NCBI GenBank assembly: GCA_963978895.1
Contig: OZ022246.1
Location: 24,150,526-24,214,525, forward strand
Origin: Erpobdella octoculata
Taxonomy: Eukaryota; Annelida; Clitellata; Hirudinida; Erpobdellidae
Length of the DNA: 64,000 nt
Reading direction: 5' to 3'
A program made the translations under genes and the position numbers. The notes under the pieces are model-generated. The model had not been told where the DNA came from and did not search any database. It saw only the letters and a list, made by a program, of their open reading frames with translations. This document shows positions 1 to 64,000 of the stretch, piece after piece. The stretch's first letter is position 1. Every line of letters begins with the position of its first letter.

Positions 1-988
1 ACACATTAAAATGCACGGCTGTTGAATATACTAGTCCATCTGATAGCTTTGCTGGTTGTTGGATTCACGATGATCCAAATATATCACACACTCCAGGATA
101 TAAAGCCGATAACTTGTTTGCCATTATATTTAGAGCAAATAAATCAGTTGATATTTGTATTGGAGACATATCAGATAGTTAGTATTTTTAAAACATTATT
201 TTATTTTTTTCAACTTCATTCTACCAATTAAATACTTAAATAAAATAATGTTCAAACCAGTAAAATTTGTGACGACCGCTACAAATTCTCCACATGTAAC
301 TTCAACAAACACAGCAGGTATTTAGAATTTTATTTTAATTTTGTTCTTCAAACATAAATTTCAACATTTTTGATGGATGTTTATCAGGACAAAATGTACA
401 TGACGAAAACAATCCCAATCGTAAGTTTTTGTGGTAAAATGTATATTTAAATGAGCATAAATTTGTCAATTATTAAATAAAAAATTACTTTCAGCGTTTT
501 CAAATTTATTAACATTTTTGTTTTAGGAAACCTTCTTATAAGTATTCTTGTTCCAGTTTTTATTTTACTTGCCATCATTATTGCAATAACTGTTATCATT
601 GTTTATTTTTGGAAAAAATCAAAACGAAATAGGTTGATTCTATTTTTAAATATTGACATAATTCTATTCTAAAATACTTATAAATACAAATTTTATAAAT
701 TGAAACATTTTTTTAGAAGATAATCATTATGTTTATAATTACTCAATAAATTTTATTATAATTAATTATAAAATACATTTATTTTTACTTCGTAAAAGAA
801 AACCTTCAAGCACCTCCAGCATAGTAGTTGAAGAACAATTGGCTCTTCCTAATTATGCCGCTGTTGACAAACCACTCAACTACATCGACATTGAATTTCA
901 AAAGAAAGAAAACATTGGCCCTCCGCAGATAACCAATGATGATAACACAACTTCATCACACATTTATTACAATACAGAGATATCATGA
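1..988 (+). CDS. R1, receptor gene, 3' part only (PAN end, stalk, TM, ITIM tail)
   Basis: The window opens inside the PAN-like exon, so the signal peptide, CTLD and first PAN cysteines lie outside. Exons I infer: 1-177 (PAN end, with the family signature KSVDICIG), 261-317 and 388-420 (Thr/Asn-rich stalk), 527-632 (TM helix followed by W-K-K-S-K-R-N), 799-988 (cytoplasmic tail, stop 986-988). The tail carries NYAAV, LNYIDI (fits the ITIM pattern L-x-Y-x-x-I) and a terminal IYYNT. Exon order, stalk exon sizes (57 and 33 bp) and tail match R5 closely, and the spacer to the next gene is also shared, so R1 and R5 are duplicates. A possible AATAAA signal is at about 1222. Likely a membrane receptor with inhibitory-type signalling; ligand unknown. 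Confidence 0.85.
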
Positions 989-2288
989 TCAACATTCACC
1001 TAACTTTCTGACACCAATACCTAAAAATTCTTGAAAGCTTTATTTAGTTAATTTAAAATTAATTGTTTATCTGATTTCCGTTTCCTTTCAGCAGCAAATT
1101 ATTTAATTTTTTTAGCATGGCTAATTAATTTTTTTATTTAATGCAATTTTTTTTATTTTAATCTGTTTTGAAAACAAAATGATGTAAAGTTGTCCTCACA
1201 CATGATTATATTGTTAAGGTAAATAAAGTTGATTTAGCTATAATTATGATTCATTTTAATTGTACTTAGAATATCGGTGAACTTATTTATTTACATCAGA
1301 AGTAAAAACCAGTCATAAACATTAATTATTAAACAGAATGAAAAAAGATATATAGTTATTTGCTGATATATTTATTTGCGTTTTGTATTATTGCTCACAT
1401 TTGATCTTCAAGCTGGTTCTTCAACCACTTGCTCTTTGTATTCAGCCAACTGCATGATTCAAACACTTATAAATTTAAATGAAATTTATTCATTGACATA
1501 AAAATATTGACTGCAACGTAGCATTTTAACTGAAAATGTCTGTCTATTATATGTTTTGTATGTTTCCTGTATTGAATTTTATAAAAAAAAATAATTTAAC
1601 AATCACGTATTTGAGCTAATTTTCCTTCTACTCCTAGTTGAGACTGACATTAGTTGGAATGGAAGCTGAGTTGACCATAGCTGTAAAATTGAACTTCTTC
1701 AAAATAACAATTACGCGATGCGGGATTTATTCAGAGTTCTTTAAATTAAGCACCTCCAGCGTAGAAACAAAAGATTTTATTGCTGCACTACTGTTATAGC
1801 TGACTTGACATGTTAATTAATCTAAAACATTTTCAACCCTCGAATGTTTAAACAAAATATATTTTCGACAAGTAAAATAAATTACATTGACAATAATCAT
1901 TATCTTTTAAGAAATTTGAATTCTAAAATGGCTAAATTATCACTTAAGACATATGTTAGCTGCTTGATGCTTTAAAAACAAGCTTCAAAAGTGACCAAAG
2001 AGTCATTTGTTAAATACTGATGTACAACTTGGAAATTTTATAGGGCTATCTAATAAGTACTCAATGAAGTTTACAAACGTTTACATTTATTGATTTGTAA
2101 CTTTAATTGGTTTCTATTTATAGCTTTTTGATTATTCATATTTTAAAATCAGAGTACTTAATGTTGCGTTATTGAGTGATTGATAAGAAGCTAACACTAC
2201 AGAGCTGTTGTAACTACCTGTACATGTTTAACAATAATAACTACTTTTTGAAATTGCCAAATGTTTTTAAAACGAACAAATTTTAAAC
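989..2288. other. Intergenic spacer R1-R2, duplicated at 16075-17425
   Basis: No gene seen. The stretch from about 1380 to 2288 is a diverged copy of 16490-17425, with long near-identical blocks such as TTCAACCACTTGCTCTTTG (about 1420 and 16530). The block ACACTACAGAGCTGTTG at about 2195 lies just upstream of R2 and recurs before R6 and R5. Confidence 0.8.
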
Positions 2289-3907
2289 ATGTTTAAATTT
2301 TATTCAAGGATTTCTCATGTAAACGTTTTGTTTCTGACGTTGTTTATTCAAATGATAGATGGAGAAGTATATCGTTGGTGTGATCCTTATGAGACATATT
2401 GTTTGTTTTCATTTGGACCTGAATTAACTGTTTCTAATTTAACGGAAGCTCAACAATTTTGTACGGAAGCTAAATATGGCAGCTGGCCTGTTGAAATTAT
2501 AAATGATCGAATAAAAAATCGCTTGACACAATTTATGAAAAATAACTCGTTGCCAAGCAATTCTTCAGTAATTCTTAATGCTGAGTTGAGAAATAATGGT
2601 TGGTATTGGATTCAGAACAATCAAGGTAAACAAACAAGTTATTGATTGAAATAATAATTATTGCATAACAAATATTGAATAAATAATTACATTTATTTTC
2701 TTACAGTTATAACAGACACTGGCTTGCCAGAAAACGGTAGTTTATGCTTTATGTATAACACATACAAAGCATGTTCAAAAATTCTTGAAAGTACAGTTGT
2801 TTGTACTACAGGTATTGAATTTTTAACTTAATAAAAGTATTTATTACAATCAATAACTTTGTTTGTTTTCATTTTAGAATGTAAAGCAGCGTGGATAAAT
2901 TTTGAACAGAAAGCAGTTGATGGAGCAGAGTATCATTATGAAGATATACGCAGTTCACCAGAATGTAAAGACAAATGTGAAGTTGACGATGCATTGAAAT
3001 GCACGGCTATGGAATTCACTAATTCATCGTCTTCTGCAAATGCTGGCTGTTGGATTCACAATAATTCTAATATACTAAACGCATCTAAGGGATACAATGC
3101 CAATAATTTGCTAGCCGTTATACAAAGAACAAACAAAACCGTAGACATTTGTGTTGGAAATATACCAAGTAACTCAACTTTTGTAAGTTTGTTAATTATT
3201 ATCTTTTAATTTAAATAAGTCAAACAACTATTAAACAGTGCCAATTCGGACTACTACCACAGTTTTTTCGCATATTACTTCGACGAATGCAGGAGGTATT
3301 ACAGTTTGTTTTTAAAAACCATTTATAAAACATTAAATAATTGTTTATCCAACTGAAGTACCTGTATTGAAAAAAAAATCACGTTTTGTATTATTATTCT
3401 GTGTTTATAATTGAATTAAAAAATAATTGTACATAATTATTCACTTAACCACAATTTTGTTTTAGACAACATTTTTATCAGTGTCCTTGTTCCAGTAATT
3501 GTGGCAATTTTAGTTGTTGTTATAATATTTATTGTCGTTGTTTGCCTCTGGAAAAAATCAAAACACAAAAAGTTTGTATCAAATTCTTATGTTAGAATAA
3601 ATGAAAATTAAAACGCTTAAACTTATAATAACAAATTATTAAATGTAAAAAATATATTTCAAATAACTATAGTTTTTTTTATAAATAAAACATACTAATA
3701 TTTTATATTTCCTAAAGAAAACCTTCAAACACTTCCAACATAGTAGTTGAAGAACAACTGGCTCATCACAATTATGCAGCTGTTGACAAACCACTCAACT
3801 ATATTGACATTGAATTTCAAAAGAAAGAAAACATTTTAAGCCCAGAGATGAAAGATGATGATAACACAACTTCATCACACGTTTATTACAACACGGCGAC
3901 TTCATAA
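2289..3907 (+). CDS. R2, CTLD-PAN-TM receptor with ITIM-type tail
   Basis: Exons 2289-2625, 2707-2811, 2878-3168, 3239-3295, 3466-3571 and 3718-3907 join to an open frame of 361 residues. Exon 1 encodes a signal peptide and the CTLD start (YRWCDPYETYCLFSFG, then E-A-Q-x-x-C and SWPVEI); exon 2 holds the last three CTLD cysteines; exon 3 is the PAN-like domain (ECKAAW to KTVDICVG, six cysteines). Many N-x-S/T sites suggest a glycosylated surface protein. The TM exon is followed by W-K-K-S-K; the tail has NYAAV, LNYIDI (ITIM pattern) and VYYNT. It pairs with R6 as a duplicate. Two further TM/tail cassettes follow downstream (4536-6322) and could be alternative 3' ends. Function as a recognition receptor is inferred from architecture only. 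Confidence 0.9.
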
Positions 3908-4535: not shown

Positions 4536-4944
4536 AAGATAATCTCATCAGTATCTTTGTTCCAGTGATCGTAGTTGTATTATCTATTGTTGTTGTAATA
4601 TCTGTTGTCGTTGTTTCGATCTGGATAAATAATAAAAACACAACAGGTGTGTTTTTATTATTTATGTTTAAATCACTAAAAAACAAAATTAATGAAAAAT
4701 TATGTTAATTTGAATTTTAAAAATTAAAAGAGTAAATAAGTTTAGTATTTTGATTGCCAATTTTTGTTTTTATAAATTCGAAACAGAAAAACAACAACAG
4801 GCAACTTAAGCATAGTTAAAAATTAACTGCCTGCCAATTATGCAGCTGTTGAGAAACCACTCAACCAAACGGACACTCCACAGATAAGAGATTGTTGAAA
4901 ACGCAACTTCATTACACGTTTATTATAAAACAGACGTATCGTAA
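4536..4944 (+). pseudogene. Degenerate TM + tail cassette
   Basis: A TM-like exon (about 4536-4646, NLISIFVPVIVV then a long V/I run) is preceded by TTTAG and followed by a GT donor. A tail-like stretch at about 4787-4944 still shows NYAAVEKPLN, but the LNYIDI region is damaged by deletion and the end is out of frame (the remains of the N-T-T-S-S-H-V-Y-Y end are read in another frame). The TM exon also ends in the wrong phase for this tail. It is a decayed copy of the R1/R2 type 3' end, with no CTLD or PAN exons attached. Confidence 0.7.
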
Positions 4945-5260: not shown

Positions 5261-6322
5261 ATGATCTTAGAATCAAAATTGCTGTTCCTGTGGTTGTTGT
5301 TCTTGTTATCATCATCATGACCACCGTTGTTATTGTTCTGCTAAGGAGAATGTTTACACATAAAAAGTTAGATCTCTAAGTTTTTTTTTATTAAAGTTAG
5401 AATTTGTTGTTCTAATATTGACTGGCATAATAATTGTCATTTAATAAAAAAAGGCAATAATCTAACATATAGGTAACTAATCATTGAAAATATAATTAAA
5501 ACATTATCATACAATTCAACAACAAAAATAAATAAACGGTTTCTATTTAAAAATAAAAAGAAAAAAGTTCTTTTAAAATCTAAAAATTTGTTCGTCGTTA
5601 TTGTTGCGCTGTGTCTGAAATGTAAGAACATAATAATATGTTAAAGTTCAATCCCGTGCCAAACAAAAGTGTGTAGGTACTGCTCCTAAGATTTACTTTT
5701 GGGGATGTTTTTCTGGCAGCTTTTGTCTGTATACGTTTGTAGTTTTGTTATTGATGAACTATGTTTAGTGAACCATCTCTTTAATATTTCCAACATAATG
5801 TTTCCCGCGTTAAAAGCACTTGTCGGAAAAGTTCAATCATTCGATTTTCATGTCTAACATTTATTTGGGCTGAGTAGGCTAGAAAAAATTGAAAACTACA
5901 CAGCTGATCTGGAAATTTAAATAACGTTCACGTTATTACAATTTTGTGTAGAAAATCTTGTGATGGACAATGAAACTCATAATTAAATTTTTTGTTCTAG
6001 ATTATTTGAAATTATTTTTTGAACAAAGTCCTTGAATTTTTGAAAATTGCGAATATATTTGTAGTTTCTTATAACTAAATTATTTTTTTTTAATTTTATT
6101 TAACAACGATATTTATATTTGTTATGCTAATTTATAAACCGTTTCTTTAAATAATTATACAGAACCAACTTTCCATCACCAGAAGAACAAGAAGAAGAAC
6201 AAGGGGCAGACAAATCACAGAACACGAATTCTGTCCAAGGAAATGAAATTTATAATCAACTTTCAACAGAGCCGAATAATTATGGAATGATAGAACATAT
6301 TTACGAAAAATTAGAAGTTTGA
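5261..6322 (+). CDS. Orphan TM + ITAM-like tail cassette (intact)
   Basis: Two exons without any ectodomain: 5261-5366 (TM, after TTTACCAG; LRIKIAVPVVVVLVII then LLRRMF) and 6163-6322 (tail, stop 6320-6322). Both have exactly the lengths (106 and 160 bp), phases and nearly the sequence of the R7 TM and tail exons at 22837-22942 and 23702-23861. The tail reads EIYNQL, NYGMI, HIYEKL, so YNQL and YGMI are six residues apart, as in an ITAM. Both frames are open and the splice sites look good, so it may serve as an alternative 3' end for R2 by splicing past the R2 TM exon; otherwise it is a recent relic of a duplicated gene that lost its 5' part. Confidence 0.7.
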
Positions 6323-7835: not shown

Positions 7836-9279
7836 ATGAAATTAAACCTTCACATCGCAGTAATTGTTATTGCAAACTTTCTGCAGGTGTCAAATGCTAA
7901 ACTTTACAGCCAATGTTACCCTTACGAAACTTTTTGTTTATTTTCTTACGGTCTAAGTTTGACCGCTTGCAGTCTTGAAGATGCTAATCGAGTTTGTACG
8001 GAGGCTAAAAACGGTAGTTGGCTGCTGGAAAAACCAACTTCTCCTGAATCTGATGCACTGAATCAGTTTTTAATGACGTTTGCGTTTCCACTGAATGCAA
8101 AAATTATTTTCAGCAATGGTATACATATTGTTTTATTTAAATTCAACTTTATTTGAATAACTCATAAAAATGGTTTAAAAAAATAATGTATTCATTCAGA
8201 TTCATGGCAAACTGTTGATTCTTTAATCAACAACAAATCCTCTGTTAATCCAACTGCTTCTCAATCACCAGGTTCATTCAATGTGATATGCAAATCAAGT
8301 TGGTAACATGTTTAATTTATCTGTTAATAAGTTTATTTATTACGTTTTTGCATTTGTTTCTGAGGTTGTTTTGCTACGTGGGAAGGAACCACACAACAAA
8401 TTGATGTAACATCTAATTCCCGACAGATATATCCATCTGGAATTAATGCTCTGGAAGATTGCAAATCATCATGCGAAACTTATAAATTTTCAGACTGTTC
8501 TTCAATTACATGGACTTACATGGGTCCTGTGCCAAAAACTTGCATTCTTTATATTGTTCCTGTAACATATATCGTGCATCAACGCTCCTATGTCTATCTA
8601 TTTTCTATAAATCGCACGGAAAAAACTGTTGAAAACTGCGTTGGACATCTTTCGGGTATTTAGTAATTCACATTTAAATTTAAAATTATTTTTTTTTGAA
8701 ATTAATAGTATTTTGTGTAGGTAATTTATAACTTTTTTTTTATTTGAAGAACCTACCAGCCAATATTGTCCTAAACTTAGTTTAGAGACAACCGTTTACA
8801 TCAACACCAATTTGACAATACTACCTTTAAAAACAACAGCTTTCGTCAACACCAGTTTGAATACATTAACGCCTATGGAAGATCAAAATAATATATTCAG
8901 TAAAAGATTTTTCATATATGAAACCAATACAATTATGATATCTTAAAGTTATTTTATTTAAATAATTTTTTCAGAAAAATTAACAGCAATTTTTGTCTCA
9001 TGTACAATCATATTCCTTATTACAACAGTCATCTTAGCTTGCTTATTATACATAAAAATTTATAAAAGGTAAGATTTGATTATTTTGATTAAAAATATAA
9101 AATGCATTATAAATTAATAGTTCATTTTTTTAAACTGAGCCAGAAATCAGCCAAGAAGTAACATTCCAGAAGGTGACCCGTCAAACGATCATTACAATAC
9201 GGCTGGATCATCATCTGACAGTGAAAATAAATATACCGATCTTAATGATAGCGATGTTGTTTATCATAACAGTAATTAG
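7836..9279 (+). CDS. R3, divergent family member
   Basis: Exons 7836-8118, 8200-8298, 8365-8655, 8750-8899, 8975-9068 and 9144-9279 give 350 residues. It has a signal peptide (MKLNLHIAVIVIANF) and keeps C-x-PYETFCLFSYG and CTEAKNGSW, but the CTLD is eroded: the W-Y-W-I strand of exon 1 is missing and exon 2 has one cysteine (VICKSS). The PAN-like exon starts CFATWEG and ends KTVENCVG with altered spacing. A 50-codon Thr-rich stalk follows, then a TM helix and a short tail with KYTDL and VVYHN. All exons are open and splice sites are present, so it is probably functional but under different constraint from its neighbours. The exon 2 donor (A|GTTGGT at 8298) is the least certain boundary. Confidence 0.8.
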
Positions 9280-10204: not shown

Positions 10205-12864
10205 ATGAATAAGCAAGTTTTAATTAAGGTTGAATTTCAACTTAAAGCTATTCATGTTAACGTTTTGCTTTTGATATTGTTCCTTCCAATGATACACGGA
10301 GAAGTTTACCGTTGGTGTGATCCCTACGAGACATTTTGTTTGTTTTCTTATGGAAGTGATGTTACTGTTTCTAATTTAAAGGAAGCTCAACAACTTTGTA
10401 CGGAAGCTAAAAATGGCAGCTGGCCTGTTGAAATTACAAATTTTCAAATAAAAAATCATTTAGCACAATTTATGTTGAATAACTCATTCCACAGCAATTT
10501 TTCGTTAATTCTAAACGCTGAATCAAGAAAAAATAAATGGTATTGGATTAAACATAATCAAGGTTAATAAAAATACATTTACTGGCATAATATAAGCCAA
10601 ATAATATTTGCTAATTATATTGACTTTCCGTAGAAATATCAGATATTGACTTGCCAGCACACGACAGCTTATGCTTCAGAAATGGTGCATATGAGACTTG
10701 TTATGAAGTACTAAACAACGCAGTTGTATGCACTATAGGTAATGTAGTTGTTGTTTTTGTTCTAAAACATTAAAATGTAAAATTGTACTGTAATATTACA
10801 GATAATGTATTTGTGTGTTAAAAGTTATGGTTATTGTAATATATTTTTATATTTTAATTCAGGATGCAAAGCAACATGGCTCGAATTTCAAAATAAAGGA
10901 ATTAATGGAGCAACTCAACATACAGAAATAAAAAGTTTATCGGAATGTAAAGAAAACTGTGAGACTGACGAGACATTAAAATGCACGGCTGTTGAGTATA
11001 CTAATTCATCTGATAACTTTGCTGGTTGCTGGGTTCACGATGACCCCAATATATCACACACTCCAGGATTTAGAGCCGATAACTTGTTCACCATCATTAT
11101 TAGAACAAATAAATCAGTTAATATTTGTATTGGAGATATATCTGATAGTTAGTATTTTTAAAACCTCAATTTAATTTTTTCAATTTCATTCTCCAATTTA
11201 AATACTTAAATTAAATAATGCTCAAACCAGTCAAATTTTTGACAACCACAACAAATTCTCCACTAATAACTTGTTTTGGAAACATATCAGATAGTAAGTT
11301 ATTTTTCAACTTAAAAGTTTTTAGTACAATTACAAGAAGAAAAACACATGTTAATCCTGCTAAATTTGACATTTTTTAAAAATTTTGTTTTAAAAGCAAC
11401 GGGTACTCTACAAACCTTTTGTTTAGTTAACATATTTAATTTTTGTTTTATTATAAAATAGCTGCTTCCGGCGGAAATATTGGCAACAATAGTAAGTTTT
11501 TAAATCTTCATTTTCAAGTTATCTACTCAAGAAACAGTGTTTATAAATTAAAGTTGACAAACGTTCATGATTAATTACCTTGACAAGAAATAAAACCTCC
11601 TCAATTATGAAAATTGTTTTGCAATAATGTTTCTATTGTTATTTTGTTTTTATACTAATAATTAGTTTTTTTAACAGTTTATAACTTTTTACACTGGGTC
11701 TTTGAAAACTTAAATAGTTGCTTATAGAAAATAACAAAATATTTTTTGTTACAGATCATAATTTCCCACCTTTTTATATCTAAAGTTTGGAATAGTTCCC
11801 ATTTTTTTAGGCGGATTTTGATATTAATAACTTAATTTTTAATAAAAATGTTGTTAATTGTTTTATTTAAATCAAACGATGTTACTCAACGTATCAATTA
11901 TAAAATTTTTAATAACAAAAAAGTTGAAGGAGCATCAGAAATAATAAGTTTAAAAGTGTCAATTCTTGTAAAAATAGACAATTCATTTTTTCATTGACTA
12001 CCTAAGACCGATACAACAAAATAATATTTCTCATTAAAATATACAGTAGATTCCGCTTCATTGGGACACACTGGGACCTAGGAAATTTGGCCCAATTAAG
12101 CGGCTGCCCCAATTAAGCGAATTTCACATACACTTAAACAATGCATATTATTCTTTTTTGAAATTTGACCCAAATTAGCGGCTGCCCTAATTAACCAGTG
12201 ACCCAATTAAGCGGAATCGACTGTATTTAATTTAAAAATTGAGAAATGACTACTCTGAAACGTGGTAAAAATGCAGTCACGTTGTGAGTCAAATTTGTAT
12301 TTATATATATTGCTTTTTTGTTTTTTACCAATAAAAATAATAAACAATTTTTAAAACTATCATTTATTTTTTTCAGTTTATTGTGGTGTGAAACAAGGTA
12401 AATGATTTTGAAAACGTCAACCATTTTCGGCATGAATTGACTTTTCTTAAACTGAATAATTGTTTTTTAAACTAAATGTTTTTGAAAATAACCATATTTA
12501 TTTTTTCTAAATGGTTTGGTTATGTTTTTCAGAATTGTTCATTGGTGTTACTGTATCCCTTATTGTCATTCTCATCATTTCTGTTACATGTTTATCAATC
12601 ATCGTTTGGAATTTGAAAAAGTTAGTCATTTTAAGTTCTATATAGTTTGAATTAATTTAGAGATTTTACTTATTAATAAAACATACTTTGTAAAGAGTCA
12701 ATGCTTTGCTGCAACTAAAAGTCGCAAATGAAACATCAAAAGAAAATCAACAACCTTCAAGAAGTGATGTTAGAAGTAATACCGGTGCAACTTATGATCA
12801 ACTCACAAACTATGAAAACAGCCTTGAAAGAGATGAACATGCATATAATACTTTGGTGACGTAA
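10205..12864 (+). CDS. R4, CTLD-PAN-TM receptor with Y-x-x-L pair tail
   Basis: Exons 10205-10562, 10634-10738, 10863-11147, 11231-11293, 11462-11491, 12377-12397, 12533-12620 and 12696-12864 join to 372 residues. CTLD and PAN exons resemble R5 (EVYRWCDPYETFCLFSYG; KSVNICIG). Three small stalk exons follow. The first (63 bp) is a hybrid: it begins like the R5 stalk and ends CFGNISD, which is a copy of the end of the PAN exon. TM and tail are unlike R5: the tail has ATYDQL, then AYNTL, with 13 residues between the two Y-x-x-L motifs, like R15. So the ectodomain belongs with R1/R5 and the 3' half with R15, pointing to exon exchange. A pogo-like MITE sits in the intron before the last stalk exon. 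Confidence 0.85.
12044..12223. mobile_element. pogo/Tc1-mariner-like MITE in an R4 intron
   Basis: A 180-bp element with terminal inverted repeats: left CAGTAGATTCCGCTTCATTG, right (reverse complement) CAGTCGATTCCGCTTAATTG, flanked by TA on both sides (12042-12043 and 12224-12225). TA target duplication and CAGT termini fit the pogo/Tigger branch of Tc1/mariner. Internal copies of CCAATTAAGCG make subterminal repeats. No transposase ORF, so non-autonomous. Confidence 0.85.
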
Positions 12865-14360: not shown

Positions 14361-16074
14361 ATGTTTCGATTAATTCTAAAAGTTTTTTATTTTAACATTT
14401 TGTTTCTGACATTGTTCATTCAAATCAAAGATGGAAATGTTTACCGATGGTGTGATCCTTATGAGACATTTTGTCTGTTTTCTTACGGATCAAATGTAAC
14501 TGTTTCTAATTTAATGGAAGCTCAACAACTTTGTACGGAAGCTAAAAATGGCAGCTGGCCTGTTGAAATTACAAATGATCGAATAAAAAATCGTTTAACA
14601 CAATTTATGTTGAATAACTCGTTTCACAGCAATTCTTCGGTAATTCTCAATGCTGAATCAAGAAAAGGTAAATGGTATTGGATTAAACAAAATCAAGGTT
14701 ACTATAAAATACATTTACTGGCATAATATAAAACCAAATAATATTTGCTAATTATATTGATTTTTTTAGAAATAATAGATATTGGCTTGTCAGCAAACGA
14801 CAGCTTATGCTTCAGAAATGGTACAAACGAAGCTTGTTCTAAAGTACTAAACAATGCAGTTGTATGCACTATAGGTAATGTACTTGTTGCTTTTGTTTTA
14901 GAACATTAGAAAGTAAAGTTGTACTGTAATATTACAGATAATGTATTTGTGTGTTATAAATAATGGTTACTGTAATATATTTTTATATTTTAATTCAGGA
15001 TGTAAAGCAACATGGCTGGATTTTGAAAATAAAGGAATTGATGGAGCAGCTCATCATACAGAAATAAAAAGTTTATTGGAATGTAAAGAAAAATGTGAGA
15101 CTGACGACACATTAAAATGCACGGCTGTTGATTATACTAATACATCTAATAACTTTGCTGGTTGCTGGGTTCACGATGATCCCAATATATCACACACTCC
15201 AGGAGATAAAGCCGATACTTTCTCCAGCATTATAATTAGAACAAATAAATCAGTTAATATTTGTATTGGAAACATATCAGATAGTTAGTGTTTTTAAACC
15301 CTTATTTTAATTTTTTCAATTTTATTCAACAAATTAAACTTTTAAAATAAATGTTGTTCAAACCAGTAAACTTTGTGACGACCACTACAAATTCTCCACA
15401 TGTAACTTCAACAAATACAACAGGTATTTAGAATTTTATTTTAATTTTGTTCTTCAAACTCAAATTTCAATTTTGATGAATGTTTATCAGGACAAAATGT
15501 TAATGACAAAAACAATGTCAATAGTGAGTGTTTGGGATTATTGATCATAATTTTGTCTATTATTAAATAAAAAACTACTTTCAACTTTTTTTAATTTAAC
15601 AACATTTTTGTTTTAGGAAACCTTCTTATAAGTATTCTTGTTCCAGTTTTTGTTTTACTTGCCATCATAATTGCAATAATTGTTATCATTGTTTATTTCT
15701 GGAAAAAATCAAACCGCAATAGGTTGGTTAAATTTTTATTCGTTGAAAAAAATTTATTTTAAAATACTTATAAAAAAATCGTTATAAATTGAAAAACATT
15801 TCAAAAGATAATAATTTTTTACGATTACTCAAAAATGTTTATTATATATAATAAGAAGATACATTTATTTTTACTTTCTGAAAGAAAACCTTCAAGCACT
15901 TCCAACATAATAGTTGAAGAACAGCAGGCTCCTCCCAATTATGCCGCTGTTGACAAACCACTCAACTATATTGACATTGAATTTCAAAAGAAAGAAAATA
16001 ATGACTCTCCACAGATAACAAATGATGAAAACACAACTTCATCGCATGTTTATTACAATACAGAAACATCATGA
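14361..16074 (+). CDS. R5, CTLD-PAN-TM receptor with ITIM-type tail
   Basis: Exons 14361-14697, 14770-14874, 14999-15283, 15367-15423, 15491-15523, 15617-15722 and 15885-16074 give 370 residues. Signal peptide, then CTLD (VYRWCDPYETFCLFSYG, EAQQLCTEAKNGSWPVEI, WYWI; exon 2 LCFRNG ... ICTI), PAN-like domain (GCKATWLDF to KSVNICIG), two short Thr/Asn stalk exons, TM, and a tail with NYAAV, LNYIDI (ITIM pattern) and VYYNT. It is the full-length counterpart of the truncated R1, with matching exon sizes. An in-frame stretch upstream of the tail exon is intronic. The CTLD lacks the EPN/QPD and WND calcium-sugar motifs, so ligand binding is probably not classical. Confidence 0.9.
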
Positions 16075-46140: not shown

Positions 46141-46456
46141 CAGCTCCAATCATAGGAGGTGTAATCGGTGGCATAGCAGGACATGTAATAATCATTACAA
46201 TTCTGACGCTCATTATAAAGAAAAAAATCAACGCTACCAAGTAGTCTTATAATATATTTTTATTTGATTAATTAATAATTAATGATTATTAATTGATAAT
46301 TAAATTGGCCTATAAATGTTTTGATTTTGTTATAGAACTAAACCTCCTAAACCTAATCCAGAAGACGCTTACGAACATCTTCCAAATACCAACAGTGACA
46401 ATAATGGCGCAATTTCAAATTCTGTACATTTGTATAATCAGTTAAGAAAAGAGTAA
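46141..46456 (+). CDS. Orphan TM + Y-x-x-L tail cassette (intact)
   Basis: Two exons with good splice sites: 46141-46240 (after ACTATTTCAG; Gly/Ala-rich TM start APIIGGVIGGIAGHV, then KKKI) and 46336-46456 (after TTATAG). The second has AYEHL and LYNQL and ends in a stop at 46454-46456. Lengths and phases (1 into TM, 2 into tail) match family rules. No CTLD or PAN exon lies between R14 and here, so it is either an alternative 3' end for R14 with a shorter tail, or the remains of another gene. Confidence 0.65.
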
Positions 46457-47293: not shown

Positions 47294-49402
47294 ATGTTTA
47301 TTGTTTGCAAAAATCTGGAGAAGTTACGTTGCTCATTTTTGATTGTATTTTGTCCAATTGTACAATGTGCTGTTTATCGCTGGTGTGATCCTTACGAGAC
47401 ATTTTGTTTGTTTTCTTACGGACCAAATGTAACTGTTACAAACTTAAAGGAAGCTCAACAACTTTGTACGGAAGCTAAAAATGGCAGCTGGCCTGTTGAA
47501 ACTCCAAATGATCATATAAAAGATATTGTTGCACAATTCATGTTAAATAACTCATTTCCAACAAATTCCTCAATTTGTCTGAACGCCGAAGTACAAAACA
47601 ATAAATGGGTTTGGATTGAAAGCAACCAAGGTGACTGTTTTTTGTTCTTAATTTATTGAACAATTTATTTCGAGACAAAAATGTTTTTATTAAAATGATT
47701 AATCTGGTTAGTAAAATAATGACCATAGCATTTAAATGTTTGTAGGATTTTTCTCTCTAAAACCTTTTAAATGGGTTGTTAGGAAATTATTTTGTTTCAT
47801 GGCAAATGTTTCTTAATGTAATTTGTTAGGTTCAAGGATGTTTAAACACATTGAAACAGTATTAAGACAATTATTTAAATAAAAATTATGTGTCAATTCC
47901 AAAAACTCTCCAAAACGTTTTTATTGTTACTATAATTTGTATGTTTTTTTAACAGTTGTGCAAAGTGCAGACACGATAAACGGTTACAGTTTATGTTTAA
48001 GAAATGGTAACCACGAAGCTTGTTCTATAAAAAAAGCAAATTTTGTTATTTGTACTACAAGTAAGTAATTTGAATTAAAAAATAAACCAAACTTGTAAGT
48101 AAAATAATGTATTTATTACATTATAAAATAAAAACAGAATGCAGAGCAGCGTGGATATCTTTTTATGGTCAAAGAGTTACTGGAGCAACTCTCAACAGTG
48201 AAATAACAAATGTGGAAGCTTGCATGGAAAAATGTGAAACCGATAAATTATTGGCTTGCACAGGATTTGAATTTACTCCGTATGTAAGCAATGGTTACCC
48301 AATCACCTGTTGGATTCACACGAGAGCTGATTTAATTGATTGCACAAAAGGAAATTTAACCAACAATACATTCCAGGTTATAAATAGAAATAGCAAATCA
48401 GTTGATATCTGTATTGGAGATATTACAGGTTATATATAAGATTTAATTACTTCAAATTGTATTTATTCACCTAATTTGTTGTATAGTAACTTTACTTTTA
48501 TATAACCTTTATTATTTTTATACATTGAACTCAAAACGCATTTGTACAGAAAAATAAATAACAGAGAATAATGAGCCAATTATAATAAGTGTGATGAGTG
48601 TTTTTAATTGTGTGGTTAAGCAATTTCTTATCCAATAAACTTGAACAATGTATGTAAAACGTACTGTAACAATAATTTGTAATAAAACAGAAAAACTACC
48701 ATATCCTTTGTTGACAACAACTGTTACTCGTTAGTTTTACTTAACTTTCTATAACCCAGCAATAATCTGTTATAACAATGTTATTTGGAAAATACACCTA
48801 ATTTGTATAGCAAAAATAAATACAGTTTGTTTTATTTTTTTGTTTGTTTCCGTTTGAGCTTAAATTAATTATTTTTCACACTTAAACATTAAATGTAAAA
48901 TAAAATTTAAAAAAAAATTTCAGTAAAAGAAAGTGTTCTTACTGTTAGGCAAGGTGATGACATTTAAATTGCATTTATAATTATAATAAAAAAAATTTAA
49001 TTTTGAAAAAATAACAATTTGTTAAATTAATTAAACAACACATTTGTTGTGATTAGACATTTTCATAGGAGTAACTGTCAGCCTTGTCATCATCATTGTT
49101 ATTCTTAGTTCTATAAATATATGGTTATTGAGGAACAAGCTCAGGTTGGCTTAATTTAAATTTAAAGTAGTAGTTATAACATCTTATTAAATTTTTCATC
49201 ATTAAACAGTTTATTGAACAATTTTTTTGACAGTTGTTGCGTTGTGCCATTTAAAAAACGTGAAAGAAATAAATTGCCGGACAGTATGTCTTCCAATTTA
49301 GAAGAAATATCAACTGGAAACAATTCTTCGTATGATCATCTTTCTAAAACAATTGAAAACCAAGACACAGCTGAGCATATGTATAATGAATTGAAAATGT
49401 AA
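47294..49402 (+). CDS. R15, CTLD-PAN-TM receptor with Y-x-x-L pair tail
   Basis: Exons 47294-47630, 47956-48060, 48138-48428, 49057-49144 and 49234-49402 give 329 residues, the shortest complete plan here. Signal peptide, CTLD (AVYRWCDPYETFCLFSYG, EAQQLCTEAKNGSWPVE, WVWI; LCLRNG ... VICTT) and PAN-like domain (ECRAAW, LACTGFEF, KSVDICIG). No stalk exon is needed for an open frame. TM (FIGVTVSLVIIIVIL, then R-N-K), tail with SYDHL and MYNEL separated by 13 residues, an ITAM-like pair with a longer spacer. TM and tail are close to those of R4 although the ectodomain is closer to R7/R18. Confidence 0.87.
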
Positions 49403-50394: not shown

Positions 50395-53215
50395 ATGACG
50401 AAAGTTTGCAGAAATCCGGAAATGTTTATATACGCATTTTTGATAGTTTTCTCTCAACCTTTACAATGTGCTGTTTATAGCTGGTGTGATCCATACGAAA
50501 CATTTTGTTTGTTTTCTTATGGACCAAATGTAACTGTTTCTAATTTAAAGAAAGCTCAACAACTTTGTACAGATGCCAAAAATGGCAGCTGGCCTATTGA
50601 AACTACAAATGATCAAATAAAAGATATTGTAACAAATTTCATGTTGAATAATTCTTTTTCAAACAATTCTTCAGTGTATCTCAATGTTGAAATAAGAAAC
50701 AACGAATGGTTCTGGATAGAAAACAATGGAAGTAATGTTATGTTTCTATTTTATAAAAAATTCTTTTTAAACATATAATTGTATCTATTAAAATAATTAT
50801 AACCAGTTAGCCATTTTTACGAGGTAAAAGATTCACTTTCAAGAACATGTTTTGTCATCAAGGAAACAATTTGTGCTTAATAATGTTTTACAGGTATTTT
50901 TTCATAAAACAGATCGCTTTAGAGGCCAACATGACCTTTGCTAGAAATATTTAGAATTTTCATTTTTTGTAGAACCACAGTGGTGCAACCAGAAGTGTAG
51001 GTGTTTGACATAGTATAAAAATGTAATTTACCAAATTGTCAAAGTAATGTGTTTTCATGTTTATTTTGTATTTACGTTAACATTTTTTTTCAAATTTTAA
51101 ACTATTGTTTTTTGCAGGTGTAACAGGTGTGGATTTTCCAAATAATAACACGTTATGTTTCAGAAATGGTAGTTATGAGTCGTGTTCTATTATAGAAAAC
51201 AGCCCTGTTATTTGTAATGTTACAAGTGAGTTATTTAAAACTGAATAATTATTGATTATTGTGGAAATTTCATCTTAAAAGTAACCTTCATAAATTTTAA
51301 ACAGAATGCAGAGCTACGTGGACGAAACTTTATAATCAATATGTTTCTGGGTCGATTTATCACTTTTTTCGCAGGAAAGATGAGGAAACCTGCAAAGATT
51401 TGTGTGAAACTAACAAATCAATGGCTTGCACGGGATTCGATTACCTTCCTTATTCATACGATGGTGTCGGATACAGGTGTTCGCTTCATAATAGAACCGA
51501 TTTGTTGACTTGTTCTAAAAGTTTTTCACAAACTGATCATCTTTTAATTATAAATAGAACCCTCAAATCGAGTGATAACTGTATTGGAAATATAACAGGT
51601 TGTGCAAATTTGTTAAAATCATTTTATTGCACTTTTCAAAACAGGTTGTAGAAATTTGTTAAAATCATTTTACTGCACTTTTTCAATAAAAAACTATTCA
51701 TGAAACTTTGTTTATGTTATAATTTTCTATTAGATCAATAAAGGTTTTGCTATTATTTATTTAGTTGTTTAACATAACGAGCTGTTAGTTATTTCACAGT
51801 TTTAATTTTTAAACAGATTTCGTTTTGCCAGAAACATCAAATGTTACACGTATGTTATAACAGGGTTTTAAGTTTAAAAGTATTTTATTATTTAAAAATG
51901 TTCAAACAATATATTTTTTATAAGATTGTTTCTTTCAATCTTCATAGTGATTAGTTATTGAATGAAGTTTTTTTTATCTTAGTAGCGACATGATAAACAA
52001 TCAAATTTAGTTATAATTTTATTTTAGTTATTTATTTCACAAAACAACACTTTATTACAGTAAAAACATTTTATTATTTAAAATCCAATTGTTAAAAATT
52101 GAAAATCATTACAAATTTTAAATTGGAAACTAATAGTAATGACGTAAGTTTAGTTTTAATAGCACACTGTCAATTATTAAACAGGTATCAGCACATCAGC
52201 GAAGACACAAGTGACAAGTAATTTATAGAATAAAAAATTTAATTGATTAAAAACTTACAATTTGAGTAATTTGTTGGTACTTTCAGGTATTCCAGTTGCA
52301 AATCCTCTCCCTTCTGGTAATAATTTTACACCGATTATTAAAATTACTTAATTGATATCTTGCTGGACTTAACAAATACAGGGTTCATTGAAGCAATCGA
52401 CAACCATTTTTAATAATTAAAAATAAATACAATAAAATATTAATTTGCTAGAATTATTTCATTCAAAAAAAATATTCTTTTTAAAACAAAAATTACTGCA
52501 TCGTATTATTCAACGGTGCGAGTGTGTGTAATTGAAAAGAAAAAAAACAGCATATATTAACTAGATTAAATTATTTCACGGTTGCAATCTCATGAAACAA
52601 CTTTTTAAGATTTGTGTTTTAAAAATCAATTTATTCTCTGTAGCAGTAGTAAGGTCAAGAGCATTATGGTTGATAAGGTGCACTAAGGAGCTGTATTTAA
52701 GCGTGGTGAATGTTGCGGCTAAGATCAGCTTGTGCCTTCGAGAGGGATCGCACAGTTTCTCCTGCTACCAACACTTTTTTCTGAAACCAGACTCTGTCAT
52801 AAATTATTTTCCCTGGTAGAAAGTCTGATTTTTAAATCACAGTTAATAGAGCACTGAGTTGATCTGAACCATAAAAGTCAACGGCTTGCCAAAAAAGCTA
52901 ACAGTATGGAGTTTTTCTTATCCAGGGTTTGAACCCACGACCATGGCTGAAAAATTAGAAAACTCTGCCTTTGTACCATCGCGCCTTTAATAACATTATA
53001 AACTATTATAACTTTAGCATGTATACTGGAAAAATGTGTAACCAACTTTCACTATATTATTTTTTTGAGTTAATTCTTAAAATTTCACATTTACATTTTT
53101 TTTAACTGTAAATGCAGGATGCTCGGTTGGACCAGCTGTGGGTAGAAAACTTGCTGGTATTGCAACAATGCTGGGATTAGGTTTACTTACAATTGTAATT
53201 ATTAAAATAATATAA
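50395..53215 (+). CDS. R16, CTLD-PAN-TM receptor without a cytoplasmic tail
   Basis: Exons 50395-50731, 51118-51225, 51305-51598, 51817-51849, 52185-52217, 52287-52316 and 53118-53215 give 310 residues. CTLD (AVYSWCDPYETFCLFSYG; the usual R before W is S) and PAN-like domain are complete; three tiny stalk exons follow. The TM exon is of the R10/R17 type but has lost its donor, and a stop follows directly after IVIIKII. A decayed tail exon remains at about 53338-53392 (NVELKHI, matching the start of the R10/R17 tails). The protein would be anchored with no signalling tail: a decoy, or one that needs a partner. There is no charged residue deep in the TM that would point clearly to an ITAM adaptor. 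A 46-bp direct duplication at 51598-51692 repeats the PAN-exon donor. Confidence 0.8.
51595..51692 (+). repeat. 46-bp direct duplication carrying a splice donor
   Basis: The block from ACAGGTTGT through TTTGTTAAAATCATTTTA and TGCACTTTT occurs twice in tandem, so the donor at the end of the R16 PAN exon (CAG|GTTGT) has a second copy 46-50 bp downstream. Confidence 0.8.
52830..52995 (-). mobile_element. tRNA-like SINE head in an R16 intron
   Basis: On the minus strand a tRNA-like head reads GGCGCGATGGTACAAAGG followed by B box GGTTCAAACC (52926-52935). Different family from the 31400-31725 SINE. Boundaries approximate. Confidence 0.6.
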
Positions 53216-53894: not shown

Positions 53895-53949
53895 GTTTAA
53901 ATTTTCTGTTACGTGTTTATGTGGCGCCAATCTAGGTGCGTGTTAGGTT

Positions 53950-54810: not shown

Positions 54811-56892
54811 ATGTTTGAAATAATTATAACAACTTTTTTTACAATTTTAATTTCCTTTAGTCAATTATTACACGGTAATGTTTATCGTTGGTGTGATCCT
54901 TACGAGACATTTTGTTTGTTTTCTTATGGAAGTGATGTAACTGTTTCCAATCTTGAAGAAGGTCAGCAAGTTTGTACGAAAGCTAAAAATGGAAGTTGGC
55001 CAATTGAAATATGGAACTCTCGGATAGAAGATGCTGTAAAACTATTCATCAAGAATAATTCATTTCAAAGCAATTCATCGGTAATACTGAATGCCGGACT
55101 GCAAAATGATGGAAATTTTTACTGGATAAAAAACAATAAAAGTAATGTTTTAATATTTATTTGTTAACAATTGAATTTTTTCTACTGTGAGTTGATTAAA
55201 ATAGTTTTTTTTATTTAAGGAATAAATACAGTAAATATAACAAATCTTCCAATAAATACAAGTTTATGCCTTAGAAATAATAACTATGAAGTTTGTTCTA
55301 TTGGAAACACTATCTATGCTATTTGTACAATTGGTAAATTAATATTAACAATTGAATTATAAGCAATTAATTGTGTTTATCTTATTGGTAAATCTGCTTA
55401 TGAAGGATGCAAAGCATCATGGACGTCTTATGAAAATCAACGAAATATAGGTGGTACTCAACAACCTGGAATAACAAGTGTGGAAGACTGCAAAGATCTG
55501 TGTGAAACCAGGAAAGAAATAAACTGCACAGCTGTTGATTATTTAACAACTCCTCAATATGGATGGGTAGGTTGTTTCACGCACACAAAATCTTCTTCAC
55601 TATTAGATATCGGAAGAAGTAGTCTTGCAAATAATTCAGAGCACGTTATCAATAGGATATTCAAGATAGTTGATTTTTGCATTGGAGATATTTCAAGTGA
55701 TTATAAATTTTTCTTACTACATTTTTTTCTGTTACTTGAAAAGTAAAATAAAATATTATTTACAGTTAAATTTAATAAAGATGTCACGTTTTTCACATTA
55801 ATAACATTTTCAACAAACGTTACAGGTAAGACTCAAAATCTTCTATTTCATTTTAATTATAATTTTATTTCTGCGATTGACAAAAAAAAATTCACAAAAT
55901 TCAAAATTGCTCAAACAAGAAAAATTTTTTTTTTTAATTTAAACGGCTAATTCAATATTAAAAAAACTGTTTTGAATTTAAATAGTTATATGTTTATTGA
56001 ATAATTTATATTAAAATAGTTTCTTTTTTATGATTTGTTTAATTTTATTATTGTTTTACATTTATATAACTGAGTGTTACAAGCTAATTATTATAAGTCA
56101 TTATATATATTAGTAATACTATTTAAATCTAAATTTAATTATGAAAAATGTTGAAATATTTCAAATTAAAATTAATTAAATTTTACATTTTAATTAATTT
56201 AAATAGTTTATGAAAGATCTTCAGCTGGATCAATTGTTGGTGGAGTGCTTGGTAGTATTGCAGTAATGCTGGGAATAATTACACTTACAATTGTACTTGT
56301 AAAACGGAAATTAAATACAAAAAAGTATTTGCTTATTAATAGTTTCTTTCTAGTTTTTATAAACTTATTAACAATAAACAAAATTTTCTTTAGTCACTTA
56401 ACAGTTTTTAAAACTCACTTAAATTACCTTAATTAAAGAACTACAGATATTGAATTGGAACACAACCAAGATGCATACGAACATGTGCATAAAGAAAACA
56501 ACTTTTCTTCAAATCCTGAACATCTCTACAACCAGTGAAAATTTTACTTTTTTATTGTTTATGTTTTTTTTAAATAAATCTGAAAAAATAATCTAATTTT
56601 TTTATTAAACAAATAAAAATAATTAATGTTTGTCATCTTTTAGATTACAGGACAACAGAGACGCTTACGAACATTTACCTCAAGAACAAAAAATGTCTTC
56701 AAAACCTGAACATTTGTACAATCAGTTAATAAAACATGTTGTTTTAAGCATTGCTTAGGTTCATAGTTTGAACCATTTGCCTAATTTTATTTACTTTTTA
56801 AAGAAATTTGAAAACAATATTTTATAAATTTTAGATTAGAAACGAAATCAGCTGGACAAAAGCTCACCTATGAAAATTTATCAAAAAAATAA
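54811..56892 (+). CDS. R17, CTLD-PAN-TM receptor with modular Y-x-x-L tail
   Basis: Exons 54811-55141, 55220-55333, 55406-55696, 55766-55825, 56207-56324, 56439-56534, 56644-56724 and 56835-56892 give 382 residues. CTLD NVYRWCDPYETFCLFSYG with E-E-G-Q-Q-V-C as in R10, PAN-like GCKASW to KIVDFCIG, one 20-codon stalk exon, Gly-rich TM (GSIVGGVLGSIAVMLG). Tail: two repeated module exons with AYEHV/HLYNQ and AYEHL/HLYNQ, each pair spaced by 13 residues, then a last exon with LTYENL (ITIM pattern) that stops after SKK, earlier than in R10 and R12, so the LIYEN motif is lost. Belongs to the R10/R12/R14 subfamily. Confidence 0.87.
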
Positions 56893-58753: not shown

Positions 58754-61197
58754 ATGTTTGAGTTTTGGAAAGAAAAAATTTGGTTACTTAGCGTATTGCT
58801 TGTCATTTTCTGTCCATGGTTAGAATGTGTTGTATATCGTTGGTGTGATCCTTATGAGACATTTTGTTTGTTTTCTTATGGACCTGATGTAACTGTTTCT
58901 AATTTAACGGAAGCTCAACAACTTTGTACGGAAGCTAGAAATGGCAGCTGGCCAATTGAAATTGCAAATGATCAAGTCAAGAATATAGTACTACAGTTTA
59001 TGTTGAATAACTCGTTTTCAACAAATTCTTCAGTTTATCTCAACGCTAAAGTAAGAAAAAATCAATGGGTTTGGATTGAAAACAACCAAGGTAAATTTAT
59101 TAGTAATTGTTTTATTAAGAAAAAAATTAATCAAACAAAACTTGTAAAAATATAAATTTATAAAAATCTACGATGAAAAATAGTAAAACTACCAAAACAA
59201 GCAATTATAAAAAAAGTTTTCAAACGTTAATTTTAATTGAATGACAAATATTTTTAAATGAAAAAGACGGACACAAATTTTGTTTTTAATTCGTTTTTGT
59301 ATTGTTTGAATATTTGCAGATATTCAAATTGCAGACAAATCAAACAATGTCAGTTTATGTTTAAAAAATGAAAACTACGGATCTTGTATTACAAACAAAA
59401 ATTCAGCTGTGATTTGTAATGTTTCAAGTAGGTTTTATGAAATAAATTATTATTCGTAATTTTGAAAAAGTCAGTCAACTGTTTCAACATTTTAAAACAG
59501 AATGCAGAGCAGCGTGGATATCTTTTGATGGTCAGCAAGTTGCTGGAGCAAATATGCACAGTGAAATAAAAAATGTGGAAGCTTGCATGGAAAAATGTGA
59601 AACCGATAAATCATTGGCTTGCACTGGATTTGAGTTTACTCCGTATGTAAACGATGGTTTCCCAATTGCATGTTGGATTCACACAAGAACTGATTTATTA
59701 ACTTGCGGAAAAGGCGATTTAGCCAACAATACATTCCAGGTTATAAATAGAACAAGCAAATCTGTTGATATCTGTATTGAAAATATTACAGGTTCAATAT
59801 TAATAATTTATTTCTCATTTTTACCTTAAAATTGTTTTTAATATTTTTTATACAAAGATAGTTTTAAAGTAAATTTGAAAAACAGTATTGAAACAACAAA
59901 ATAAATATTTTAATTGATTTTGTTCAATTAAGTTATTCGATTGAAGAACATTTTTAAAGTAACAAAACATATTACTGAGAATGTTTGTTTTAATTGGTTA
60001 TTTGTTATTGATATCCTAATAATAACCATTTTACAGAATTAAAATTGCTGCAAACCACAGAAATTACAAGTAATTTTTTATTATAATTGTTTTTTTTTAT
60101 TTTCTGCTGATTGTTTTAAAATATTTAAACACCACAACACTTATAAATAAATTTCCACATTTTGAAATTTGTAATCAGGTACCATTATATCGGTGACAAC
60201 TCAAGTTACAAGTAACTTAAAACACTTAAATTTCATTTTTTTACCATATTTTAATGACATTGTGTTTTTTTTTAAATGTTTTTATAACAAATTTATTACA
60301 GGGCGTAGCCTGGTTTTTGTTTTTTAGAAGGTAAAAAAACAAAAAGAATGCATTGAATGCAAAAAGCATTAGCATTTTTTTTAATGTAGTAAAAATAGTT
60401 TCTAAGAATAGTTGATAACTGAAAAAACAACAGTCGTTAGTTATTTTAAAACGATTTAAAAGTTTTATTTAAGTAAATTAATTTGTCAAACTAAATAACA
60501 TGAAAACAAATTTCTAAATGCAAATTTTTGTTTTAGGGGCCACCCTCCTTTTGGCTACGCCACCATAATAATTGTAGTTGAGAAATTGTATTAATTTTTT
60601 TATATAATAAAAGAAATTAAATCATCTGCTGTTTAAAGTTGATTAATTCAGATATTTGTTATTTAGGCTCAATATTTATAGAAACGTTTCCAACCAGTAT
60701 TGTTGTTCCTGTTGTGGTTCTTCTTGTCATCATTATTATAATAATAACAGTCATTGCCATTTTGCTACGAAAGAGATTAAAATTAAAAAGGTTTGTTTTG
60801 TAAGTTATCCCCTCCATGGTTAATTAATTTTTAAATCTAGAGCTATGCTATTTCGAAACTAAATGTTTGACATTAGTTTGAATATTTTAATTTTGTTCTT
60901 GTTTAATTACAAAAAAAACAATTCACTAACTTCTACTTATGATTGTGATATATGTTTATGATTGATATCAGAAGTTCAACCACTGACTTGAGCACGCAAA
61001 TTATACGACATCCATCTCTGTATCCATCCACTAATGAACACGAGTTGAACTACATCGATGTTGATTTCAAACCAGCAACTCAAACTCTTCCACCTGGAAA
61101 CGACGAATATTCGTCTCCTTTTCAAGTTTATCATAACATGGCGGCAGAGCAAAACAGTTCAAAAAGCCAAACATATGCCGAAATTGAAAAATATTAA
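58754..61197 (+). CDS. R18, CTLD-PAN-TM receptor with ITIM-type tail
   Basis: Exons 58754-59090, 59320-59427, 59501-59791, 60037-60069, 60179-60211, 60667-60790 and 60972-61197 give 383 residues. Signal peptide, CTLD (VVYRWCDPYETFCLFSYG; LCLKN ... VICNV), PAN-like domain (ECRAAW, LACTGFEF, KSVDICIE with the usual G changed to E), two 33-bp stalk exons; the second (G/S-T-I-I-S-V-T) is the single-copy form of the R8 minisatellite exon. TM then tail with LNYIDV (ITIM pattern), VYHNM (Y-x-x-M) and TYAEI near the end. A MITE-like insertion lies in the intron before the TM exon. The exon 2-exon 3 region is almost identical to R19. Confidence 0.88.
60301..60564. mobile_element. MITE-like insertion in an R18 intron
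   Basis: Ends are inverted: GGGCGTAGCC at the left and GGCTACGCCACC at the right, with TTTTTGTTTTT-type sequence just inside both. No ORF. The target duplication is not resolved. Confidence 0.6.
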
Positions 61198-62514: not shown

Positions 62515-62732
62515 AGCCTTCGATTGTTGGAATTTATAAATCGAAGCAAGATATTTGTCGTACACATAAAGTAAACTGCTACGTGTACAATCTCGAATCT
62601 TATTATATGAAAAGTGATGTGTGATAGTTTTTTTTATGAAAATTCTAACCGTTGTACAGTTTTGTACATAATTTAGCGTAATGGTAGTACTTACAAGTGT
62701 TATCAATAATTGTATCTACATGGATCTTGTAT

Positions 62733-62810
62733 TTTTATGGGCCTGATGTAACTGTTAGCTTAACAATTTTGTACGAAAGCATCAAATGGTAGTTCATCTG
62801 TTAAAAAACA
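62733..62810 (+). pseudogene. Relic of a CTLD exon 1
   Basis: TATGGGCCTGATGTAACTGT followed, after a deletion, by TTTTGTACGAAAGC and a decayed GGTAGTTCATCTGTTAA. This matches the YGPDVTVS ... LCTEA ... GSWPVE stretch of family exon 1 with internal deletions. About 370 bp before R19. Confidence 0.75.
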
Positions 62811-63189
62811 TAGTTTACAATCCATTTCTAAGTTATTTCAAAGCCTGAATATTAATTAAAAATAATGTTTCTTGAAAATTTCTTCAAATCAAATAATTAC
62901 TATTTAGTAATTTTATTCTATTTTCTCTATTAAAAATTGCGCATTCAAAGCTCAGGCGAACAGCTATTAATTACCAAGTTCTAAAAATAGCTGTAAGTTA
63001 AATGCTGGGAAAATATTATAAAAACCACACAACCTTATTTCAAGGCTTTAAGTCTTGCAAAAACAGTTGATAGTTACGTAGTGTACGCTGCTTTTGTGTA
63101 TATTTCATATTCTGTCTTAATTTTTTAATTGATTTAAAATTCATTTAAAATTCATTTGTATTAATATCAACTGTTTATGAGGTTTGAAT

Positions 63190-64000
63190 ATGTTAAAAAT
63201 TTGTAAAAAACAAATTTTGGTTTCAACCGTTTTGTTGATAGTTTTTTGTCCAATTGTACAATGTGCTATTTACCGTTGGTGTGATCCTTACGAGACATTT
63301 TGTTTGTTTTCTTATGGACCAAATGTAACTGTTTCAAATTTGATGGAAGCTCAACAACTTTGTACGAAAGCTAAAAATGGCAGCTGGCCTGTTGAATTAA
63401 CGAATGATCAAGTCAAGAATATTGTTGTACAATTCATGTTGAATAACTTGTTTCCAACAAATTCCTCAGTTTATCTCAACGCTGAAAGAAGAAACAATAC
63501 ATGGGTTTGGATTGAAAACAATCAAGGTAAATATATTAGTAATTTTTTTTTATTTCAAACAAACGAAACTTGTAAAAGAATAAATTTATAAAAATCTGGG
63601 ATGCAGAATAGTAAAACTACTAAAATTAACGGTTATGAAAAATTCTTAACACGTTGACAAATCTTTTTAAAAAGACGGACAAAAATTATGTTTTTAATTC
63701 GTTTTTGTATTGTTTGAAACTTTACAGATGTTCAAATTGCAGACAAAATAAACAATGACAGTTTATGCTTAAAAAATGAAAACTACGGATCTTGTTTTAC
63801 AAACAAAAATTCAGCTGTGATTTGTAATGTTTCAAGTAGGTTTTATGAAATAAATTATTATTCGTAATTTTGAAAAAGTCAGTCAACTGTTTCAACATTT
63901 TAAAACAGAATGCAGAGCAGCGTGGATATCTTTTGATGGTCAGCAAGTTGCTGGAGCAAATATGCACAGTGAAATAAAAAATGTGGAAGCTTGCATAGAA
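63190..64000 (+). CDS. R19, receptor gene, 5' part only
   Basis: Exons 63190-63526, 63728-63835 and 63909 to the window edge. I start at ATG 63190 (MLKICKKQILVS); the TTG two codons earlier is not needed. Signal peptide, CTLD exon 1 (AIYRWCDPYETFCLFSYG, EAQQLCTKAKNGSWPVEL, WVWI), CTLD exon 2 (LCLKN ... VICNV) and the start of the PAN exon (ECRAAW). From about 63790 to the end it is practically identical to R18, including the intron 63836-63908. One N-glycosylation site common in the family (NNSF) is NNLF here. TM and tail lie outside the window. Confidence 0.88.

Follow-up and report, generated by a model that had tools for sequence, protein, structure and literature searches.

A tandem cluster of CTLD-like and PAN-domain receptor genes with ITIM- and ITAM-like tails in Erpobdella octoculata: a probable paired receptor system

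A 64,000-nt stretch of the Erpobdella octoculata genome (GCA_963978895.1, contig OZ022246.1:24,150,526-24,214,525, forward strand; hereafter the window) carries one type of gene in 19 copies, of which G9m, G11m and G13m lie on the minus strand and the other 16 on the plus strand, and we propose that this germline cluster probably encodes type I surface receptors that make up a paired activating and inhibitory system. An earlier sequence-only reading of the same DNA had counted nineteen loci, and profile searches bear the count out: an exon-1 profile built from three copies recovers 18 of them (E 1.2e-54 to 2.4e-16), missing only G1 at the window edge and giving its weakest match at the latter half of the disrupted exon of G12, while a profile of exon 3, the PAN exon, built from four copies also recovers 18 (E 1.6e-49 to 1.5e-9), missing only the pseudogene G12 and scoring 8e-8 on the piece of that exon in the edge-cut G19. 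The single architecture described there, with a C-type lectin-like domain (CTLD), a PAN/apple-like domain, a short stalk, a transmembrane (TM) segment and a tyrosine-motif tail, holds at most loci but not at G12, which has a stop and no PAN exon, at the tail-less G16 or at the very divergent G3. Its signature motifs are likewise less uniform than first described: SWPVEI is exact in 8 of 16 models, with SWPIET in G16; W-x-W-I is found in 12, with LYWI or FYWI in G10, G14 and G17 and nothing comparable in G3; and in G6 and G14 no stalk exon was found.

The spliced models, 16 complete and two edge-cut (G1 and G19), were drawn by eye from the genomic sequence and together contain 99 GT-AG introns. 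Among the 95 introns whose phase was counted, the first three of each gene are always in phase 1 (50 of 50) and the later ones divide into 22 in phase 1 and 23 in phase 2, those joining TM to tail and tail to tail exons being in phase 2; the splice sites were themselves chosen with an eye to GT-AG and to an unbroken frame, so that as evidence these regularities are independent only in part. With phases so constant, duplication or skipping of exons, whether in the ectodomain or in the tail, could leave the frame intact.

The best-defined part of the ectodomain is exon 3, in which six cysteines are invariant in all 16 models. Its AlphaFold model (pLDDT, the predicted local distance difference test score, 86.1) has structure matches (VIA, and Foldseek with a best E of 0.0088) led by the HGF N-domain, plasminogen, leech anti-platelet protein and factor XI, and the predicted fold supports its identification as a PAN/apple domain, in line with the six-cysteine domain first described. 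Pfam PAN_1 matches 9 of 16 members at E<=1 with a best E of 7.5e-5, one member scoring 18.7 bits against a gathering cut-off of 21.4 bits. The sequence-only reading had named a structure prediction with neither the CTLD nor the PAN fold as the result that would overturn it; for PAN, the predicted fold is found. The exon shares this fold with plasminogen, HGF, factor XI and leech anti-platelet protein, all of which are, to our knowledge, secreted, and none of which we know to be a tyrosine-motif receptor.

Exons 1 and 2 probably encode a CTLD without a canonical lectin site. In 12 of 16 models each of the two exons has at least three cysteines (exon 2 lacks the full three-cysteine set in G3, G9m, G11m and G13m), and the order of these cysteines, with three in the first part, three in the last part and a WxWI-like core, is one that we take to be that of a long-form CTLD. 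Run against the PDB, the profile of this module returned 18 matches, of which 14 are CTLDs by name, including six Ly49/KLR chains, and four are Sec2 coiled coils; the PAN profile used likewise, as a control, returned no CTLD among its nine PDB matches, and hhalign against Ly49C gave P 0.00025 over 35 columns, compared with 0.17-0.24 for PAN controls. Several results weigh against the assignment: E exceeds 0.03 for 17 of the 18 PDB matches, among which several nearly duplicate others; hhalign against rat MBP-A, a true CTLD, gave no match (P 0.3); Pfam Lectin_C was matched by one of 15 members (E 0.063) and by none of seven spliced ectodomains at E<=1, while unrelated Pfam families scored as well or better (CBM39 0.0015, DUF7676 0.015); the structure model of exons 1 and 2 is poor (pLDDT 49.9); and no CTLD appears among the 50 Foldseek matches listed of its 421. 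That model, probably because it had to carry an intron-coded insert, is unusable, and we do not weigh its Foldseek result against a CTLD. Of the original long-form CTLD, then, the cysteine pattern and weak profile matches stand, and the expected Lectin_C score was not reached. None of the 16 CTLD-like modules contains the EPN/QPD or WND calcium/sugar motifs, which would make a protein a likelier ligand than a calcium-dependent sugar.

The cytoplasmic tails are enriched in tyrosine motifs well beyond chance. In a set of 19 tails, taken from 17 loci and two orphan exon sets with G12 and G19 left out, 53 of 83 tyrosines lie in YxxPhi motifs (shuffled mean 13.3, maximum 26 in 2000 shuffles), as against 15 of 145 ectodomain tyrosines in the 16 models; the immunoreceptor tyrosine-based inhibitory motif (ITIM), [ILVS]xYxx[ILV], occurs 12 times (shuffled mean 2.5, maximum 9), and Yxx[IL]-x5-14-Yxx[IL] pairs, resembling the corresponding activation motif (ITAM), 13 times (shuffled maximum 4). 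As paralogous tails are not independent, we repeated the control with one tail per class (nine tails), where YxxPhi still numbers 22 (shuffled maximum 14), pairs number 6 (maximum 3) and ITIMs 5, a count equalled in 20 of 5000 shuffles, so that the ITIM/ITAM-like character first ascribed to the tails is upheld. L-x-Y-x-D-[IV], of ITIM type, is found at seven loci (G1, G2, G5, G6, G9m, G13m and G18) and Yxx[IL] pairs 5-14 residues apart at six (G4, G7, G10, G14, G15 and G17). By analogy with vertebrate receptors, these motifs may be read as having inhibitory and activating roles; against this, most ITAM-like spacings (x5, x10, x13, x14) lie outside the classical x6-8, which occurs only in G7, G17 and the orphan set B, each time as x6. 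YxxPhi is also an AP-2 sorting signal, and one could picture adhesion or developmental receptors that use it for endocytic sorting and not for SH2 signaling, yet the ordered pairs exceed their shuffled maxima in both tail sets and the conserved L-x-Y-x-D-I/V goes beyond a single sorting signal, making this quite improbable.

Beyond what was first read from the window, ectodomains and tails of opposite sign have been re-combined between genes. The ectodomains of G4 (10205..12864) and G5 (14361..16074) are 83% identical, with an ITAM-like tail in the former (YDQL-x13-YNTL) and an ITIM tail, tail A, in the latter; and G18 (58754..61197), whose tail is of ITIM type (LNYIDV), has its exon 1 nearest to that of G7 and its exon 3 nearest to those of G8 and G15, three genes that, unlike G18, carry ITAM-like or YxxI/V tails. 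A second form of re-pairing is suggested by orphan B (5261..6322, plus strand), a G7-type set of an intact TM exon (5261-5366) and an ITAM-type tail exon (6163-6322) that lies downstream of G2 (2289..3907), a complete CTLD-PAN receptor with ITIM tail A; the set has GT-AG sites phase-compatible with G2 exon 3, which ends at 3168, and between G2 and G3 no ectodomain exon matches by profile. Aligned with G7, its exons are identical at 248 of 266 positions (93%) and its intron at 587 of 754 (78%, with 47 gap columns), the flanks agreeing at 142 of 276 positions on the 5' side and 193 of 293 on the 3' side; the excess of exon over intron conservation is significant (Fisher 3e-9), the reading frame is fully open, and the 89 codons show nine silent changes and nine that change meaning. 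This suggests that selection or gene conversion has preserved the exons, and their simplest use would be to give G2 an alternative 3' end. That gene conversion could also produce the pattern counts against such a use, as it would keep exons alike even in remnants of dead genes, and an adjacent TM and tail A exon set on the plus strand (4536..4809) is plainly decayed, with an early stop. We nonetheless lean slightly away from regarding the orphan sets (5261-6322 and 46141-46456) as mere remnants, considering how much better the open exons of orphan B are kept than its intron and that only nine of its 89 codons have changed meaning, as many as changed silently.

Sequence change is unevenly spread over the ectodomain, with exon 2 diverging most (within clades, 52% identity compared with 83% and 73%), despite which the G2 and G6 copies of it are 88% alike. 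The exon 1 and exon 3 trees reject each other, which implies sequence exchange between genes; a point against this is that the test used 5000 replicates, below the number advised by the program. A test for positive, diversifying selection did not show it: of 48 exon comparisons (NG86, 16 chosen pairs), 45 have a ratio of nonsynonymous to synonymous change (dN/dS) below 1, and the three values above 1 (1.06, 1.40 and 1.50), all in exon 2, rest on four to six synonymous changes. Relic exon-1-like fragments occur at 34687-34728 (profile E 0.013) and, by eye, at 62720-62830, and are signs of gene birth and death. Together with the pseudogene, the truncated G16 and the mostly low dN/dS, they would suit receptors of pattern-recognition type that chiefly sense microbes or damage and evolve by ordinary birth and death of genes, and foreign or matrix molecules are common ligands of CTLD and PAN domains. 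The missing calcium/sugar motif and the Ly49 natural killer (NK) receptors among the PDB profile matches argue otherwise, and the paired opposite tails fit self-monitoring but also pathogen-driven paired receptors; on balance we regard microbe sensing as a serious contender that falls somewhat short of an even chance.

In the paired system that we favor, a distal CTLD-like module, with exon 1 as conserved scaffold and exon 2 as the fast-changing part, would bind ligands from atop a PAN/apple base, whereupon a Src-type kinase would phosphorylate the tail. Inhibition would then come from SH2 phosphatases recruited to L-x-Y-x-D-I/V tails and activation from Syk-type kinases engaged by YxxL pairs, and the five YxxM motifs of G14, mostly minisatellite-coded, could recruit PI3K. 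Genes would gain new specificities and signs by being duplicated, by exchanging sequence and by re-pairing ectodomain exons with tail exons of compatible phase, the overall logic resembling that of paired NK-type receptors, with a binding head in common and opposite tails. Of this picture, the architecture, the PAN fold, the excess of motifs, the re-paired tails, the conflict between trees and the conservation of the orphan exons are seen in the sequence; the probable CTLD fold, the class of ligand, the signaling, the alternative use of orphan tails and any immune or allorecognition role are inferred. A fuller version, in which the cluster is an NK-receptor-like complex of independent origin built on CTLD and PAN, switches sign through the G4/G5 paralogues and the 3' exons of G2 (ITIM 3466-3907, ITAM-type 5261-6322) and serves self/non-self recognition, is offered tentatively and is, taken whole, rather doubtful.

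Inhibitory and activating members, closely similar ectodomains and clustered genes liken the cluster to the vertebrate Ly49/NKC C-type lectin-like receptors and KIR. Ly49 receptors are type II, consist of a CTLD only and in their activating forms signal via adaptor proteins; the cluster genes differ in being type I, in the added PAN domain and in having the ITAM-like motif within the receptor itself. The ectodomains of Hydractinia Alr are Ig-like, unlike the CTLD and PAN combination here. According to PMC12065747, the Alr complex is another invertebrate locus with ITIM/ITAM-type tails, and the closest functional parallel we found is the fester co-receptor family (FcoR) of the Botryllus schlosseri fuhc locus, likewise a set of clustered germline receptors with both tail types (ITIM, hemITAM and core YxxI/L/V). 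The same paper gives the FcoR ectodomain as Ig and sushi, where the cluster has CTLD-like and PAN domains, and reports splicing that swaps ITIM and hemITAM at the oligomorphic FcoR loci, a swap that in the cluster is suggested by exon layout alone (PMC12065747). Pfam scans of the cluster proteins found no Ig or sushi family, and the cluster genes are members of neither Ly49/KIR nor Botryllus FcoR. An allorecognition or histocompatibility locus in the strict sense, like FcoR or Alr, would share with FcoR the clustering, the two tail types and a possible splicing choice (PMC12065747), and the tree conflict implying exchange would fit; the different ectodomain speaks against it, and we consider it unlikely. 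Among the open-licence papers listed by literature searches, we found none on a CTLD and PAN receptor with ITIM/ITAM tails. A protein homologue search scored only P0001 and P0002 among 335 candidates, both proteins of short ENA contigs, the PAN alignment matched none of 165 candidates, and searches of genome contigs and viral contigs returned no relative, which leaves a prokaryotic or viral origin without support. An NCBIfam scan gave only scattered matches to bacterial families.

The remaining loci follow in order along the window. The 5'-cut G1 (1..988) keeps the end of the PAN exon, followed by two stalk exons, TM and tail A (LNYIDI ITIM); G3 (7836..9279) is a divergent member whose tail has one YTDL; G6 (17426..18993) has ITIM tail A (LIYIDI); G7 (21119..23861) has the ITAM-type tail YDHL-x6-YGMI..YEEL; and G8 (25017..27521) combines a Thr-rich stalk from a 24-bp minisatellite (26253-26565) with the tail YDQI...YEIV. 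On the minus strand, G9m (28446..30098; exon 2 without the middle cysteine pair), G11m (35142..36812) and G13m (39789..41614) all have tail E, with LNYPDI as ITIM plus EAYTEV in the first, the ITIM lost (LNYPDF) in the second and LNYVDI in the third. G10 (32198..34570) spreads tail F, with repeated YxxL, over several exons; the pseudogene G12 (38112..39296, limits by eye) has its stop in exon 1 and retains TM and tail exons; and G14 (43133..45509) has five tail exons, the last containing an 18-bp minisatellite (45263-45434) that encodes a METYEK-like unit run with YxxM, the five motifs of the gene being YVKM, three YEKM and YENM. Downstream of G14, orphan F (46141..46456, plus strand) has open TM and tail exons (YEHL...YNQL) and no ectodomain exon matches. 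G15 (47294..49402) has the ITAM-like tail YDHL-x13-YNEL, G16 (50395..53215) stops straight after the TM and has no signaling tail, G17 (54811..56892) has a multi-exon tail F including YNQL-x6-YEHL, and the 3'-cut G19 (63190..64000) contains exons 1 and 2 and the PAN exon start.

GC content, in 4-kb steps, runs from 24.8 to 30.5% across the window. The exact sequence ACACTACAGAGCTGTT at 2194-2209, 14238-14253 and 17313-17328, roughly 95-123 bp before the start codons of G2, G5 and G6, is a possible shared promoter element of these genes; with up to three mismatches it has nine matches where 0.44 are expected, three of the nine inside PAN coding exons. A MITE-like element (miniature inverted-repeat transposable element) at 53661-53900 has 58-nt inverted repeats, 93% complementary and 124 nt apart, a short sequence at 12045-12225 with ends that match around CCAATTAAGCGG resembles by eye a small DNA-transposon remnant, and an AT-rich tandem repeat at 62182-62513 has 15 copies of a 22-bp unit. 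The segment at 31420-31730 resembles by eye a tRNA-derived SINE (short interspersed nuclear element), while ARAGORN and Rfam reported nothing there or elsewhere in the window.

Allorecognition systems have been argued to reinvent their ligands and receptors yet to converge on ITIM/ITAM signaling (PMC12065747). If our reading is true, the Erpobdella cluster would add another independent example of this convergence, one with CTLD and PAN ectodomains, tails of both signs and exons that may switch the sign.

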